From Lophium mytilinum (lineage: Eukaryota; Ascomycota; Dothideomycetes; Mytilinidiales; Mytilinidiaceae): DNA of 64,000 nucleotides. A program made the position numbers and the translations under genes. Below the pieces are notes generated by a model that did no database searches, was not told the DNA's origin, and saw only the letters and a program-made list of their open reading frames with translations. The first letter of the stretch is position 1, and each line of letters opens with the position of its first letter. The DNA lies in NCBI GenBank assembly GCA_010093605.1, contig MU004182.1, forward strand, positions 1,211,032 to 1,275,031. Reading direction: 5' to 3'. Positions 56,900-63,090 of this stretch are shown piece after piece.

Positions 56900-58037
56900 G
56901 AAGCTCAGTTGTGGTTGTCTGCTGATGGGGGGCATACATACGAGAGCGAATGATTGCCAGGAATCTCTGGCAATCATGTTTTTTGCGAATCTTTAGAAGC
57001 CAAATCTATGAGCTCAGGATCATGGCTCGTCTTTAAGAAGGGAATTGATCATACAATGAGATTACTGGTTCTCTGACTGAGGTCTCAACGATCGGCAAAC
57101 TGGTAGAGACCTTCGAGTTGACGAACAATGGCGCGGTGCCTGATCGGTTGCTGCAAGCCTTGCCTTCTTCAAATGAGCTGGATTCCGGGCTCAGCAATGG
57201 CTTTGTTTCCAACCGTTTCAGCTCTTTGTATTTGCTACTTCTGTATGGGTATCCAGCGTTGGCTCTCCTTTATTGAACCTAGCAACGTGATCATTGCGAG
57301 AAACATCACCGAACATTTCTGAAGGCCGAGCATATGTCATTGGTAGTATAGAAGGTGTGCTTCTTCTGGGATCTAGATGAAAACAGTCGTGGTTTGCTTC
57401 GCGGTGATTGTGACAAGCTCCTCTAGTAGTATACCAGCCCGAGCCCTGTAGTCCCTTCCCGCGCATGTGTACCCTTCCTCGTCATTATATAGCATCGTCC
57501 CCATCAATTAAACAGCAGAGACGAGTAAGCTAGGTCCAGACGCGCCCAGGTACTATCAATCGGGTCCAGGGGTGTTGGTTCCGGCATGGGAGCTGTATTG
57601 CGAGACCGTTCAGCTTCGTTACCAAAAAAAGGTCTTCGCAGTCATTCCATGGCGGAGTGTAGTCTTTGGTGATCCTTTATTATCCACGGAGCGGAGGCAT
57701 CGTGGAGACGTAGGAGGCGCTGAGACGCAAGTTGAGGTAGGCTACTAAAATCGTCGAGTCTCCCTAAGACACCGTCAGTGAACTGTTTTCTGCGCCTTCG
57801 AAGACAGACGCCAATTTCGCGTATTGCAACTTCAATCTCCTGGGCGAAAGATGTTCCTGTTGAAAGAGAGAGCCGTTGGGGGTGAAAGTGGTTGTGTTCT
57901 GAGCTTTGATGTTCGTCCCCCACACACGTCCCTGCCGCTAACACTCAAATTGGAGCCTGGCCCCATTCTTTCGCCTGTCCATTTTTACAAAGCTTATATA
58001 CTGATATTTTTTGGCCACAATCAAAATCACCCAGTAA
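56900..58037. other. Intergenic between O-methyltransferase and tRNA-Pro(AGG)
   Basis: 1.1 kb with the methyltransferase 3' flank. A near-perfect hairpin (GATTGCCAGG, AATC, TCTGGCAATC) just after the gene at 56950-56974 may be transcript structure. Short frames at 57128-57322 and 57642-57944 are not recognised. Confidence 0.45.
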
Positions 58038-58180
58038 GGTCTGTTGGTCTAGTGGTATGATTCTCGCTTAGGGTTCACCTTAAGTCGTTTGCGAGAGGTA
58101 AGCATCATCATCAAATCACTATTCAGCATTCCATAACTAACAACCTCATCAGGCCCCGCGTTCGAGTCGCGGACAGACCC
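58038..58180 (+). tRNA. tRNA-Pro (anticodon AGG) with two introns
   Basis: The mature cloverleaf is perfect after removing two insertions. Acceptor stem GGTCTGT pairs with ACAGACC (58173-58179); anticodon stem CTCGC (58063-58067) pairs with GCGAG (58091-58095); T stem CCGCG pairs with CGCGG around TTCGAGT; AGG is at 58070-58072. The first insertion, 58074-58089 (16 bases), is the usual tRNA intron after position 37. The second, 58098-58152 (55 bases), lies in the variable loop after position 45, begins GTAAGC, contains CCATAACTAAC and ends CATCAG. Its exact removal leaves the 5-base variable loop AGGCC. The A box is intact and the B box (GTTCGAGTC) is uninterrupted. The D arm and anticodon arm match proline tRNAs of other eukaryotes. 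Confidence 0.93.
58098..58152 (+). other. Spliceosomal-type intron within tRNA-Pro(AGG)
   Basis: 55 bases with 5' GTAAGC, branch-like ACTAAC about 16 bases before the 3' end, and 3' CAG, the same layout as the pre-mRNA introns in this window. The borders coincide exactly with the bases needed to restore the tRNA. No bulge-helix-bulge is evident by eye. Confidence 0.75.
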
Positions 58181-58192
58181 ACAATCTGATTA

Positions 58193-58208
58193 TTTTTTGC
58201 TTTTTTTT
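58193..58208 (+). terminator. Pol III terminator of tRNA-Pro(AGG)
   Basis: Runs of six and eight T separated by GC begin 13 bases after the tRNA end, the standard RNA polymerase III stop signal. Confidence 0.8.
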
Positions 58209-58891
58209 GGTGCTCTATATCATATATAGATATTAAGCAGTGTGTGTGTGTGAGAGCGGCATGTCTTTTTAGAGGTTAGATGGGATAGAAGAACAACCAG
58301 GGAATTCATTTTGTGGAAGTGTTACGGAGGTTCGCGTTTCGTGGTAATCTTTTGTAAGATGGGGTGCACTTTACGTAGACAGAGGAGTTGTGTCGCCCTG
58401 GAAAACGTAGCACAAGCCTTAGCAGCTTCTTGAGAGGCGTCTTTATATTTTCTCGAGGGGTGAGTCTAAACCTGTGCTGTATGTAACTCTAAGGCGAAAG
58501 CATTTCTTCGAGTTATCTAGCTTCGGACTTAATCTATAACCCTTAATTAAAAACGATATCTAGTTCAGCGGTAATGGCTATATCACAATGAAAGTGCATG
58601 TGGATCAAGTAGAGGATGCCCCGGCGTGGCATTACTCTTAAAGTCACTAATCGAGTCATAGATCTGTCAAGCACATATGGAGTTTGTTCACGACGCAGAA
58701 GTAAAGTGATGAAAGGTATGAACAAGAATTCGAGTACTCTATATATACCTTGATTGTTACAATACACTATGCCCGTCTTGGTCTAAAAATCCCAGGAAAG
58801 GTGGTATTTTGGGAGTTCGAATTAACTACCCTTAGTGTCTACCTTCTTAATCATGCGATATGGTTTCACGCACAAAAGAAGGCTGGCGGCC
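58209..58891. other. Intergenic between tRNA and dioxygenase gene
   Basis: A short GT run (58241-58252) follows the terminator. The remainder is the 3' flank of the TauD-type gene, with no recognised feature. Confidence 0.4.
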
Positions 58892-60140
58892 TTACTCTGC
58901 ATCCGTCGGCGCTACTGGAGGCGTGTCATTGACTTGAATACCGCCCCTCTTCTTTTCCTGGCTATCATGGAATGGTAGCTTCCATCCGCCCTCTGCCTCT
59001 GGCGTGCTCAACCATAGCCGCATCAAGTGACGGCGCGGAGCTGGGGGCGGGTAGTCCTTGTATGCAGTCCTAGCGTGTAGAACATGCTCGTTGGAGAGGA
59101 ATTGAATGTCGCCGATATCTAGAATCATATGCAAGCTGAGACGCACACAGGTGTCCTCAAGAATTTGGGCAGCACGTAGCTGAGCAGGCGAGAGTGGAGG
59201 AATGCGGCCGGCATCAGAGAAGCGGGTAAGAGATTTGACGTAGTAGGGATCCCATCTATGAGGTGAATTAGCTTTTGCGTGTGGTACAGCTTGGGCTTTC
59301 ATACTTGGAGTACACCCTCGGGTTCTCCCCTTTCTCCAAATAGAAGACCGACGTCTTTATCCACTCCTCCTCTCCCTTGCTGGTCTCCCCTTTGCGATCG
59401 AAATACCATTGCGGCTTCACTAGCTCCTCCGCAACATCCGGATGCTCCTGCTGCAGCACATTCCACACATGATGCGAACTCACCAGATCGCTTTCTCCGC
59501 CCTCGAGTGCTTTTGCTACGCAGAGAAGTCCTACGAGGTCACTGTCGTCGGCATGGAAGAATTGGCGCGCATTTGTGCGGTAGATCCGCACTTTATCGAT
59601 CTGGCTGCTGTCTTCTCCGAGATCCTTGACATGACCTAGGACGTGTCCGCGGCCGTTTTGAGATACGAAGTAGCCCAGATAAGTTCCTAGACCCATGTAT
59701 GCGACCGCGGATTTGCGAAGACCCCATTCGTCCACCGGAAAGCCTTTGAAGAGGAGGAATCCTTTGCCGTTGAGCAATTCGTGCCTCAAACTTTTAAGAA
59801 ATGTGCTGAACTCTGGGAGTGTGAAGTTCGACTGCGAAATCCCGGTCAACGGGGTTCCGGAGGCAATGAAGGCATCGGCGGCAGCGCTGATTTCAGCAAT
59901 CTCGGAGGCAGAAAAGGGGTGAGTCCAGCGTTCGGGGTTGCTGGCATAGTCTGCGGCGTCCCAGACTGTGGGGCCGGTGATGGTCTTGGGGAAGGCGGAG
60001 TAGGGTTGGAGAAGGTCGTAGAGGGGAGGGTGCTGGCCCGAAGTCTTGATGCCGTCTGGGAAGATGGATTTGGGGGCGGTAGACGGAGAGGAGAGAGTGT
60101 GAGGGGGTGCAGGTGCGGAAGCTGTAAGTGCTGGTGCCAT
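58892..60140 (-). CDS. TauD/TfdA-type Fe(II)/2-oxoglutarate dioxygenase
   Basis: Exons 60140-59305 and 59255-58892, with a 49-base intron (GTATGA...CATAG), give 399 residues from MAPALTASAP. An upstream in-frame ATG at 60242 would add 34 residues and cannot be excluded. The jelly-roll core shows LLNGKGFLLFKGFPVDEWG, then ARQFFHADDSDLVGLLC with iron ligands His196 and Asp198, and a distal EHVLHARTAY with His339 and the 2-oxoglutarate-binding Arg341. All three metal ligands are present, so it should be active. Fungal proteins of this group are annotated as taurine-catabolism-like or clavaminate-synthase-like dioxygenases; the true substrate is unknown. The two tRNA-Pro genes lie on either side of it. 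Confidence 0.9.
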
Positions 60141-60849
60141 TATGGGGTTTGGCTGTGGAGAGTTGACGTTTGTAACTGAATTAGATGAGTGACAGCAACA
60201 ACCAGTGATATCGAAGGTTGTACGAGTTTTACTTGTATTCAAGATGCAATTGAGAGTAAAGAGAACACAAGGGTTTTATATATCGGAGTACGGAAATGAC
60301 GCGACTCTTGCACATCCAACAAAGGGCGTCATAAGGCTTTTATGGAAAAAAGCATCTTACCCCTCCATCCACCCTTGGTACTACCGATGGCGAAATCTCC
60401 GAAGCACGAGCGAAGCACGAGCGAAGCACGATAACGGCAGATTTGTCCATGTAACTGCGTAGGTGGGATTGCGTGATTGAGACCTTGTCAGCACGAGATG
60501 GACCACTACTGGCGTAGTGGAGAAAGGGCGCGATGAAGTCAACCAAGGGTCCAAACCATGCCCCGCACCGAGCCGGACTATTCTGTGTGCCAAGAGGGGT
60601 GCCCTTGCCGGACTGCTTTGGAGGGGGGCGGGGAATGCTGGTACTCGTTAAAGTCTCGCGTCGTGACACAGTCCACCGCGCCACCATCACTTCGCAATTA
60701 TGAGTCAACGCCATATTCGTCTCCGTCCGCGCTTTGCAAAGAGATTTCAGCGGACTCAAAACCTTCTGAAGTGATGCAGCTTTCGGCTACCTCGAGTTCT
60801 AACTGTATAATGATTAGATAATTTTGACCAACTTCAAAAACATCAGTTC
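60141..60849. other. Intergenic upstream of dioxygenase gene
   Basis: About 700 bases with the dioxygenase promoter, a small tandem repeat at 60400-60432 and the 5' flank of the second tRNA gene. No other gene is recognised. Confidence 0.45.
60400..60432 (+). repeat. Triplicated 11-base tandem repeat
   Basis: Three consecutive copies of GAAGCACGAGC, the last with a variant end. Probably a small slippage expansion. Confidence 0.85.
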
Positions 60850-60991
60850 GGCCCAATGGTCTAGTGGTATGATTCCTGCTTTGGGTAGCACACGCTCATG
60901 ATTGCAGGAGGCCCGTGAGTACACACCACACCATCATGCTCCGGACTCATTGCTAACCATAACACAGCGCGTTCGAATCGCGGTTGGGCCC
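60850..60991 (+). tRNA. tRNA-Pro (anticodon TGG) with two introns
   Basis: Acceptor stem GGCCCAA pairs with TTGGGCC (60984-60990); anticodon stem CCTGC (60875-60879) pairs with GCAGG (60904-60908); TGG is at 60882-60884. The first insertion, 60886-60902 (17 bases), is the standard position-37/38 intron. The second, 60915-60967 (53 bases), lies inside the T stem between its first and second base, begins GTGAGT, contains TTGCTAACC and ends ACACAG. Exact removal rebuilds the variable loop AGGCC, T stem CCGCG/CGCGG and loop TTCGAAT. As sequenced, the T stem cannot form without removal, so the gene is either spliced here or dead; the perfect remaining cloverleaf favours splicing. The B box is intact just downstream of the insertion. 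Confidence 0.92.
60915..60967 (+). other. Spliceosomal-type intron within tRNA-Pro(TGG)
   Basis: 53 bases with the strong donor GTGAGT, branch-like GCTAACC about 14 bases from the end and 3' ACAG. Apart from these signals it is unlike the intron in tRNA-Pro(AGG), and it sits four positions further along the tRNA. Confidence 0.75.
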
Positions 60992-61000
60992 CGAAAATGA

Positions 61001-61019
61001 TTTCTTTTTGCATTTTTTT
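61001..61019 (+). terminator. Pol III terminator of tRNA-Pro(TGG)
   Basis: T-runs of five and seven begin about 10-15 bases after the tRNA end. Confidence 0.75.
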
Positions 61020-63090
61020 AGACCTTTATGCTTCTCCATCGTGAGCGGACAAGATGCGCATTGAAACTGGGGCTGCATTTTTTATGGGCCATGCCAAGAG
61101 GACTAGCTTAACTGATAGTTCTATGAAAACAAACCTATGCACCAAGCTTTCCCACATTCTTCATATATCCGCTACACCCAAATCGCCCCCGTTTTTACAT
61201 CCGAGATGCTCAATAGCAGTCTAAATATGGGCTGTAACTTCATCGGGCAAAAGAGAACGGACCCAACCGCGATTCTAACGCGCTAGTATGTTTCAATTTC
61301 AATCAGACATTACAGACCACCTCCGACAATACTATGTGACTGGCAAAGCAATAAATACTCACCTTACTCAGGGTTTTCCAACCCCCCTGCTACGCAGAGG
61401 GGTTTCAAGACCAACGGCTTATAACAACCGTTCTCGACTTTTTTAGACACTTGAAAGACGCCAGACAGTGTTGAAAAGACGGCAAGGAGTACGAAAACAC
61501 ATGTCAAATTCAAGAGCCGAGCAGAACCTGTCGCGACGGGTGGTTGAACTCTGCCCCTTTCAATTCACTCCCTCAAACTCTTTACGTCGTGCTCGAATCG
61601 TGCATAATGTCCCAGGACACCTCAAACGCCGCTTTTACACAGATATTTCACTAAAGATACCTCTCAGATTCCAGAGTAGCGCAATACCATCCCTGAAATA
61701 CGCTCCAATCAGACCCCTTCTAATTCATGAACTACAATTCTTTACGTCCCATTTATCTCCCCTTCAACTCCACGAAGCCACTCGAACGCCGCTCTCAAGC
61801 ACGCAAGTCTCTTAAGAAAACGTCTCGAATTCAACCGCAGAGAATTCGTTTCTTAGACAGGAGCTCAATCTCGCAGCTGGGCACACACCGTTTGGCACTC
61901 GTTTAGCACTGCTTGGGGTACTTCTACCGGCTCTTAGAAAAGCCCCATGATGTAAAGATTTACAGCTTGAAAATTGAGCTGTCTATTGACTGCCTAGCTA
62001 CTTCGTAACTGGGCTGCTCCCTGCAGTGGTATCAAGCGAGTAAGAGAGGAGCTTTTGTAGAGAGATTTTCAATGTGCTGGAAGTTATGGCGAGAAATATG
62101 ATGTAAGTTCGGCGCAGTGGATATTAGACTGCCTCTTGACTAGCCGGCGACACACTAGCTGAGCTACTCCTTACAGGGGTGAGGAGCGAACAAGAGTGGC
62201 GCGTTTGTAGAGAGATTTCAATGTGCTGGAAGTTATAGCATGTTCGTGTAATGTAATTTTGAGGCAGTGGAAATCGAACTACCTCTTAGCTTGCCAGCGA
62301 CACACTAGCTGGGCTACTCCTTACAGTGGTGTCAAGCGAGCGATAGGGAAGCTTTTATAGAGGTATATCTAAGGCGCTGAAATTCATGGCATATTCATGT
62401 GATGTAAAATTTGAAGCTGTGGAAATCAGACTACCTTTTGGCCGACCGGCTATACTCTAGCTGGGCTGCTTCTTACAGTAGCGAGGGGCGAGCAAGAGTG
62501 AAGGTTGAGTAGGGCAATATGCAATGTGCTAGAACTCATAGAATGTTTATATGATGTAAATTTAATGCAGTGGAAATCTGATTACCTCTTGACTGGCCGG
62601 GTAACCGCTCGCTGGAACACTCCTCACATTGGTAAGAAGTGAGCAAGAGTAGAGCTCGAGCAGTGGCATACCCGTGTACACTGACTTATGACATATGATG
62701 CTATATCAAAATCTGCGTACACTTTGTGGCGGTTGCGTGGGGAGATCTTATGCACTCAGGGATGCGAAGAAATAATGCTTCTACTTTTTTTTGAATATTC
62801 ATAGATGACACCGTCTGAGGTGGCCTGGCAGAGTCTTAGGATGCTCCAAACGATTCACTTACGCCTACTTCAGTTTTTTCGAAAATGCATCAGGGGACCT
62901 CAGACCGTGGCACCCAGGTGTACGCAGAACTGTTGCAGATGGAATTTATCGTTTTTGGTATTATTCCCGAGCCTCTTTGATAATTCGAGGGTCTCGTTAG
63001 CTAACGCCGTGTGTCTTTATAACAGACACCATGTGAATTAACTCTCCGCAGTGTGAGCCATTTCAGAAACCATTCCCAGAAGCCATCTCC
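61020..63090. other. Gene-poor region with repeat array
   Basis: No protein gene is recognised. A GC hairpin (AACCCCCCTGC ... GCAGAGGGGTT) lies near 61380-61405, frames at 61468-61815 have no known content, and a diverged tandem array occupies about 61975-62665. The right end is the 3' flank of the SmD1 gene. Confidence 0.5.
61975..62665 (-). repeat. Diverged tandem array, about 4.5 units of roughly 145-160 bases
   Basis: Recurrent blocks in order are GACACACTAGCTGGGCTACTCCTTACAG, GCGAGCAAGAGT, CAATGTGCTGGAAGTTATAGCAT, GTGATGTAA and GCAGTGGAAATCAGACTACCTCTTG, with many substitutions between units. The reverse complement of a unit aligns with the direct repeats that flank the BTB gene at 36 kb, so it is the same repeat family in opposite orientation. 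Units have no coding sense. Confidence 0.75.

Follow-up and report, generated by a model that had tools for sequence, protein, structure and literature searches.

The splicing of tRNAs and that of mRNAs are usually kept apart, and the locus described here raises the question of whether a tRNA gene transcribed by RNA polymerase III (Pol III) can carry an intron of the mRNA type. In the accessible part of the tRNAscan-SE 2.0 paper a single intron is given as the limit for a eukaryotic tRNA gene (PMC8450103), and tRNA splicing is treated as spliceosome-independent in the portion available to us of a recent article (PMC13149111, 2026). The locus is a tRNA-Pro(AGG) gene in a window of 64,000 nucleotides from the fungus Lophium mytilinum, the whole stretch of DNA that was analysed, and all positions without a contig label are counted from its first letter. 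An earlier note on this DNA had described the gene as holding two introns, one in the anticodon loop and the other, with GT-AG ends and a branch-point motif, in the variable loop. Judging from the sequence, we consider the second insert very probably to be a U2-type spliceosomal intron in a Pol III-transcribed nuclear tRNA gene, and the genome to hold at least 12 introns of this sort, at ten tRNA sites.

The tRNA-Pro(AGG) gene occupies 58038..58180 of the plus strand, as do all features of the two Pro genes given below, and was identified with ARAGORN, a cloverleaf finder and a covariance model; the coordinates that had been given for it and for the insert in its variable loop proved exact on reading out the sequence. 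Its 16-nt anticodon-loop intron, a canonical one between positions 37 and 38 of the tRNA, lies at 58074..58089, as placed by ARAGORN once the ectopic insert is taken out of the locus. The ectopic insert is 55 nt long and lies at 58098..58152, between positions 45 and 46, where it separates the AG from the GCC of the variable loop. As described earlier, it starts with GTAAGC, ends with CAG and contains CTAAC, which forms a putative branch-point motif at 58137..58141 whose candidate branch A, at 58140, precedes the intron end by 12 nt. The gene also holds what we take, from the box consensus, to be box A (TGGTCTAGTGG) at 58045..58055 and box B (GTTCGAGTC) at 58160..58168. A TATATA about 40 bp upstream (57995..58000) was noted from sequence alone, and downstream a T6 run at 58193..58198, with a T8 run next at 58201-58208, is the likely Pol III terminator.

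Removal of the insert does leave a tRNA-Pro(AGG) cloverleaf, as had been claimed, with 7/7 pairs in the acceptor stem, 5/5 in the anticodon stem, 5/5 in the T-stem and 3/4 in the D-stem and a variable loop of AGGCC, and ARAGORN, when run on the locus minus 58098-58152, calls tRNA-Pro(agg) and sets the 16-nt intron in the canonical position. If the insert is left in and introns are allowed, the same program calls a spurious tRNA-Gly(tcc) with a 59-nt intron, and the cloverleaf finder, too, recognises Pro(AGG) only once the insert is out. The exact boundaries are shared by several solutions: 11 deletions tie on the cloverleaf score, four registers give the same product, one of them being GT..AG, and AGG is present at both junctions of the insert. 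Because several deletions and registers tie in this way, tRNA-Pro(AGG) taken alone is suggestive and not decisive.

Another gene of this kind lies 2.8 kb away. It is a tRNA-Pro(TGG) gene at 60850..60991, with a canonical 17-nt anticodon-loop intron at 60886..60902 and an ectopic 53-nt GT-AG intron (GTGAGT..GCTAAC..CACAG) at 60915..60967, between positions 49 and 50 and inside the T-stem; the candidate branch-point motif, CTAAC, is at 60953..60957 (candidate branch A at 60956) and box B (GTTCGAATC) at 60971..60979. Here the product comes from a single register, the GT..AG one, yet four deletions tie on score. A pattern for the tRNA-Pro D-arm and anticodon stem, with up to three mismatches allowed, occurs at three places in the genome, namely these two genes and a tRNA-Pro(CGG) gene on contig C16 that has a canonical intron only, and the Pro(AGG) exon pattern has no match in prokaryote and viral sequence collections. 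The earlier note had named an intact intron-less tRNA-Pro(AGG) gene elsewhere in the genome as grounds for abandoning its reading, and none was found within the sensitivity of our searches. About 270 bp from the intact tRNA-Pro(TGG) gene, at approximately 61259-61282 of the minus strand, there is also a decayed tRNA-Pro(TGG)-like 3' half with a broken box B and an intron-like stretch (GTGAGT..ACTAG), about 100 bp upstream included.

Both Pro genes escaped the standard programs in the settings used. ARAGORN with introns disallowed reports no tRNA in the window, an Rfam search at gathering scores reaches no family there, tRNA included, and a permissive Rfam scan of 57800-61500 gives no tRNA. A covariance model trained on tRNAs of this genome, Pro(AGG) and Pro(TGG) among them, finds these two genes and no other tRNA in the window at E values up to 10.

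The genome was searched as 43.2 Mb in 24 contigs, the window lying on contig C2. The Rfam tRNA family has at least 42 matches genome-wide (63 of 1,346 candidates scored), and of 40 loci taken from such matches 34 give a plain cloverleaf, four are interrupted (L033, L046, L048 and L050) and two (L047 and L049) yield no cloverleaf, either plain or restored. Further tRNA loci came from box B searches, among the matches listed, and from BLAST. Altogether 51 cloverleaves were read, 39 of them plain and 12 with an ectopic insert, and a canonical intron is present in 43 of the 51. These counts favour interrupted genes, because one box B search was designed to find them; in a less biased sample, the list of box B plus T-run sites from C1 to part of C3, five of the 15 tRNA genes recognised among the matches listed are interrupted. 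The inventory is partial, Met and Glu being among the tRNAs absent from it, and BLAST with fungal tRNAs as queries gave no match for Met, Glu, Gly(TCC) or Ile(TAT). One of the plain cloverleaves, L045, looks mitochondrial. Sites with box B and a T-run gave 545 matches, as against 217 for the reversed pattern; many of them have no tRNA, and some of these (L066, L081 and others) lie downstream of U6 or of a repeated small-RNA-like unit (CACAGAGGCGGGGTGGTAA).

The 12 interrupted genes comprise two for Pro, three for Asp, two for Ile, two for Ser and one each for Ala, Arg and Val, with ten insert sites among them. Their ectopic inserts measure 50-57 nt and have GT-AG ends in 11 cases and GA-AG ends in one, and nine of the 12 genes have a canonical intron as well. 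Apart from the two Pro genes, they are three copies of Asp(GTC) with a 56-nt insert in the variable loop (L065, L071 and L072), at a site that adjoins that of Pro(AGG); Ser(GCT) with 51 nt in the variable arm (L033); Ser(AGA) with 50 nt at 52/53 and GA-AG ends (L046, C5:1138741-1139171); Ala(TGC) with 53 nt at 9/10 (L048, C3:1659179-1659557); Arg(TCT) with 55 nt at 53/54 (L050); Ile(AAT) with 52 nt at 18/19 (L068) and again with 52 nt at 28/29 (L091); and Val(AAC) with 57 nt at 32/33 (L079), the site numbers being counted from the cloverleaf in this analysis. The Ser(AGA) insert, in spite of its GA 5' end, has a normal branch motif and AG; GA-AG ends may be spliced here, or else the base may have mutated recently or been miscalled.

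The first deletion scans required a GT, GC or GA start and an AG end, and since this demand for splice-like ends made them biased, they were repeated without any constraint on the ends. In the unconstrained scan any deletion of 40-70 nt was admitted at 55 loci without a plain cloverleaf, with complete acceptor, anticodon and T stems required. A cloverleaf was restored at 14 of the 55, the restoring deletions including a GT..AG one at 11 of these 14; the same 12 genes were recovered, L046 through a GA..AG deletion, plus the doubtful L092 and L093. These last two, best at 70-nt deletions, were left uncounted as interrupted genes; together with L086 they belong to a repeated tRNA-like family, possibly a SINE, which carries TCCGGTG and CGCCGGA at its ends, possesses a T-arm and has a long central part without a tRNA fold. 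With the Asp genes taken once, GT..AG is in the near-best boundary set of nine of ten independent genes, and the next dinucleotide pair in five of ten. For Ser(GCT) and Ile_1 the cloverleaf fixes the boundaries poorly (260 and 68 equal or better deletions, respectively), and for Asp_1, Asp_2 and Val a deletion other than the GT-AG one scores slightly higher.

The signals within the inserts are more uniform than their sites. In each of the 12 there is a CTRAY whose A stands 10-13 nt before the 3' end, as against 57 (1.5%) of the 3,862 stretches of 50-57 nt that run from GT to AG on either strand of the window, a control that includes the two Pro introns; CTRAY and GTRNG occur together in 11 of the 12 inserts and in ten of the 3,862 segments, the two Pro introns being among those ten. 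The recurrence of these signals excludes chance. Over the whole window a strict intron motif shows no enrichment (13 matches, versus 30 in reversed and complemented controls), and because the intron motif is common we rejected its mere presence as evidence and relied instead on its position, on exact boundaries and on recurrence; the location of the motif is the unusual feature. Three of the host's own mRNA introns were available in the window: a PHM7/RSN1-family gene has two, of 50 and 54 nt, and a TauD-family gene has one, of 49 or 58 nt. The tRNA inserts match them in length and signals, with the reservation that the sample is small and that the 50-nt mRNA intron has CTAAG, not CTAAY. A HET-domain gene (PF06985) was detected as well, which points to a filamentous ascomycete; a lichen-forming habit would be no more than a guess.

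The same intron type is found in another Pol III gene of this genome, that of U6 snRNA. The Rfam U6 family has at least 21 matches (47 of 2,177 candidates scored), and seven of the 21 listed (L051-L057, on C1, C4 and C23) span 148-151 nt and contain a GT-AG intron of 48-51 nt. These introns lie directly after ACAGAGAAG, are alike in sequence and have CTAAY with its A 10 nt from the end. The other 14 listed matches lack such an intron, since they span only 100-106 nt (three of the 14 were read). Spliceosomal introns in fungal U6 snRNA genes have reportedly been described by Tani and Ohshima in 1989 and by Canzler et al. in 2016. Like the tRNA inserts they combine a Pol III gene, a short GT-AG intron and a branch motif; in contrast, U6 is a component of the spliceosome and has a single intron site in this genome, whereas the hosts here are tRNAs, with ten sites.

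U6, which the earlier note had named as the precedent, is not the sole one, U3 snoRNA (PMC5832005) and lichen rDNA (PMC8527467) being others as far as the accessible portions of these papers go. There, the U3 snoRNA genes of fungi are said to have an intron excised by the pre-mRNA splicing machinery, and frequent interruption by an intron is stated to be known, among small structured RNAs, for U3 and U6 only (PMC5832005). U3 is, as here, a small structured RNA with a spliceosomal intron, and spliceosomal introns in tRNAs are not mentioned in the available part of that paper. Lichen fungi, according to the excerpt at hand, have ectopic spliceosomal introns in rDNA, one of which (57 bp) was removed by yeast from a Pol I transcript (PMC8527467); these are likewise mRNA-type introns in a transcript not made by Pol II, but in a Pol I rRNA and not a Pol III tRNA. 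Ribosomal DNA was sought in the present genome for such introns, and a search with 5.8S gave no match. Among the top-ranked results of searches of the open-access literature, no paper was met that describes spliceosomal introns in tRNA genes.

With 12 genes and ten sites sharing the same signals and seven intron-bearing U6 matches in the same genome, a spliceosomal-type intron in a Pol III tRNA gene, as first suggested for Pro(AGG), is the best-supported reading. GT at the 5' end and AG at the 3' end, taken as the mark of U2-type introns, are present in 11 of the 12 inserts, Pro(AGG) and Pro(TGG) among them. The U12-type 5' splice site, RTATCCTT, fits the first 8 nt of none of the 12. Group I and group II self-splicing introns usually have a catalytic core of more than 200 nt, and were rejected for inserts of 50-57 nt in a window where no Rfam family reaches its gathering score. 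Canonical tRNA introns, which in eukaryotes are not known to have a splice-site consensus, lie at 37/38, unlike the ectopic inserts at 45/46 in Pro(AGG) and 49/50 in Pro(TGG), and both Pro genes have a separate canonical intron (16 and 17 nt).

Introns away from 37/38 are, on the other hand, familiar from Cyanidioschyzon merolae, the Guillardia nucleomorph and archaea, where the accessible parts of three papers describe them as endonuclease substrates (PMC4090602, PMC3978253, PMC8450103); the ectopic introns of algae, nucleomorphs and archaea also appear in the part available of PMC4033280. As these sources have it, they resemble the present genes in the position of the introns and in having more than one intron per gene, and they show a bulge-helix-bulge motif in C. 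merolae and archaea, many Guillardia introns being of 3-24 nt and without a defined motif. Ectopic tRNA introns of that form are thus on record in eukaryotes, in the portions seen of PMC3978253 and PMC4090602, and the tRNA splicing endonuclease might remove the present inserts through bulge-helix-bulge motifs in the same way, which we consider very unlikely. When the central helix is drawn at the GT-AG register (GA-AG in Ser(AGA)), none of the 12 genes offers more than 3 of its 4 pairs (range 0-3, Pro(AGG) having 2/4), and the 4/4 pairs that Asp_3 does offer are at a register other than the GT-AG one. Neither the near-fixed length of 50-57 nt nor a branch motif at a near-fixed distance would be needed by an endonuclease, and the yeast enzyme, in the accessible text of PMC4033280, cuts only at 37/38.

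Whether the interrupted genes are in use was judged from their surroundings and from the presence of spare copies. A run of T5 or longer follows all 12, some of the loci having been found through such runs, and by eye a TATA lies upstream of 11 in the upstream bases inspected, Arg being the exception. Box A or box B, likewise by eye, is readable in the DNA even where the intron touches it, the exon base of the box being supplied by the first G of the intron in Ile_1 and by the last G in Arg; the exception is Ala(TGC), where the intron splits box A and itself contains the box A-like TGGCTCCGTGG. BLAST with nine mature tRNAs returned the interrupted loci, a relative of Val (L013), the second Ile copy, itself interrupted, and weakly the decayed Pro(TGG)-like piece. 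This search turned up no near-identical uninterrupted copy in the genome for Pro(AGG), Pro(TGG), Asp, Arg(TCT), Ala(TGC), Ser(AGA) or Ile(AAT), with the proviso that it may miss divergent copies, as it did not report Pro(CGG) or a divergent Ser(GCT) gene (L037). Genes free of an ectopic intron also exist for Val(AAC) (L013) and Ser(GCT) (L037). Every Asp gene found (three) and every Ile(AAT) gene found (two) is interrupted; provided that the inventory holds, Asp codons could not be decoded without removal of the insert.

These observations bear on the idea that the inserts are simply insertions into disused tRNA pseudogenes. The decayed Pro(TGG)-like piece at about 61259-61282, with its intron-like insert, would fit such decay, as would the uninterrupted relatives of Val(AAC) and Ser(GCT). 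All 12 genes, however, have complete acceptor, anticodon and T stems once the insert is taken out (a condition of the scan), T-runs are present, the Asp genes differ by paired changes in the acceptor stem (TCCTTGA/TCAGGGA versus TCCTCAA/TTGGGGA), and for seven isoacceptors BLAST found no near-identical uninterrupted copy. Dead genes are accordingly an extremely improbable explanation.

The origin of the spliceosomal introns is a separate matter from their splicing, and here a mobile, introner-like element might have spread one intron sequence into the tRNA genes. Ten insertion sites in one genome are what active spread would produce, and the AGG at both junctions of the Pro(AGG) insert would also suit it. 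Against this, the introns are mutually unrelated in sequence outside the Asp trio, and ten introns used as BLAST queries at E up to 1 gave 11 matches, only to the tRNA loci themselves, in a search that missed the 81% identical third Asp intron and that diverged copies could escape; we give this origin hardly any credence. Within the Asp trio, which shares one site, two introns are identical and the third is 81% identical to them over 52 nt, with GTAAGC, CAATCATGCTAACGGATGT and CAG kept. The two Ile(AAT) paralogues are interrupted at different sites (18/19 and 28/29), which requires two gains, so that gain was repeated. That the introns arose through reverse splicing into abundant tRNA is a hypothesis that readily suggests itself.

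The processing of tRNA-Pro(AGG) can be pictured as follows. Pol III would transcribe box A, the two introns and box B as far as the T-run, and the spliceosome would recognise GTAAGC, CTAAC and CAG in the pre-tRNA, from which 55 nt would leave as a lariat. Their removal would let the cloverleaf form, and the tRNA endonuclease and ligase would then take out the 16-nt intron. In the predicted fold of the unspliced RNA the acceptor and T stems are kept and the D and anticodon regions are mispaired, which would be in line with this scheme. That the gene is transcribed, that the spliceosome removes the insert and does so before the endonuclease acts, and that such introns were gained by insertion on several occasions, we infer alike from the features described above.

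That the genome holds a class of putative spliceosomal introns in tRNA genes, larger than the single case of Pro(AGG), is well supported by the sequence. Since tRNA structure gives the ancestral sequence of each site, these inserts may offer a clean system for the study of intron gain, and because the tools as run miss both Pro genes of the window, similar cases in other fungi may be filed as missing tRNAs. It is likely that the spliceosome has become a required tRNA-maturation enzyme in this fungus through about ten separate gains, one per site and including two sites in two copies of one tRNA, and that Asp, Ile (AUU/AUC) and most Pro codons need mRNA-type splicing of Pol III transcripts in order to be decoded, with a second, protein-enzyme splicing step in nine of the 12 genes. 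Single tRNA genes here seem to need both splicing machines, and if this is true, the spliceosome can serve Pol III transcripts broadly, and the supply of tRNAs for translation would be tied to splicing capacity.
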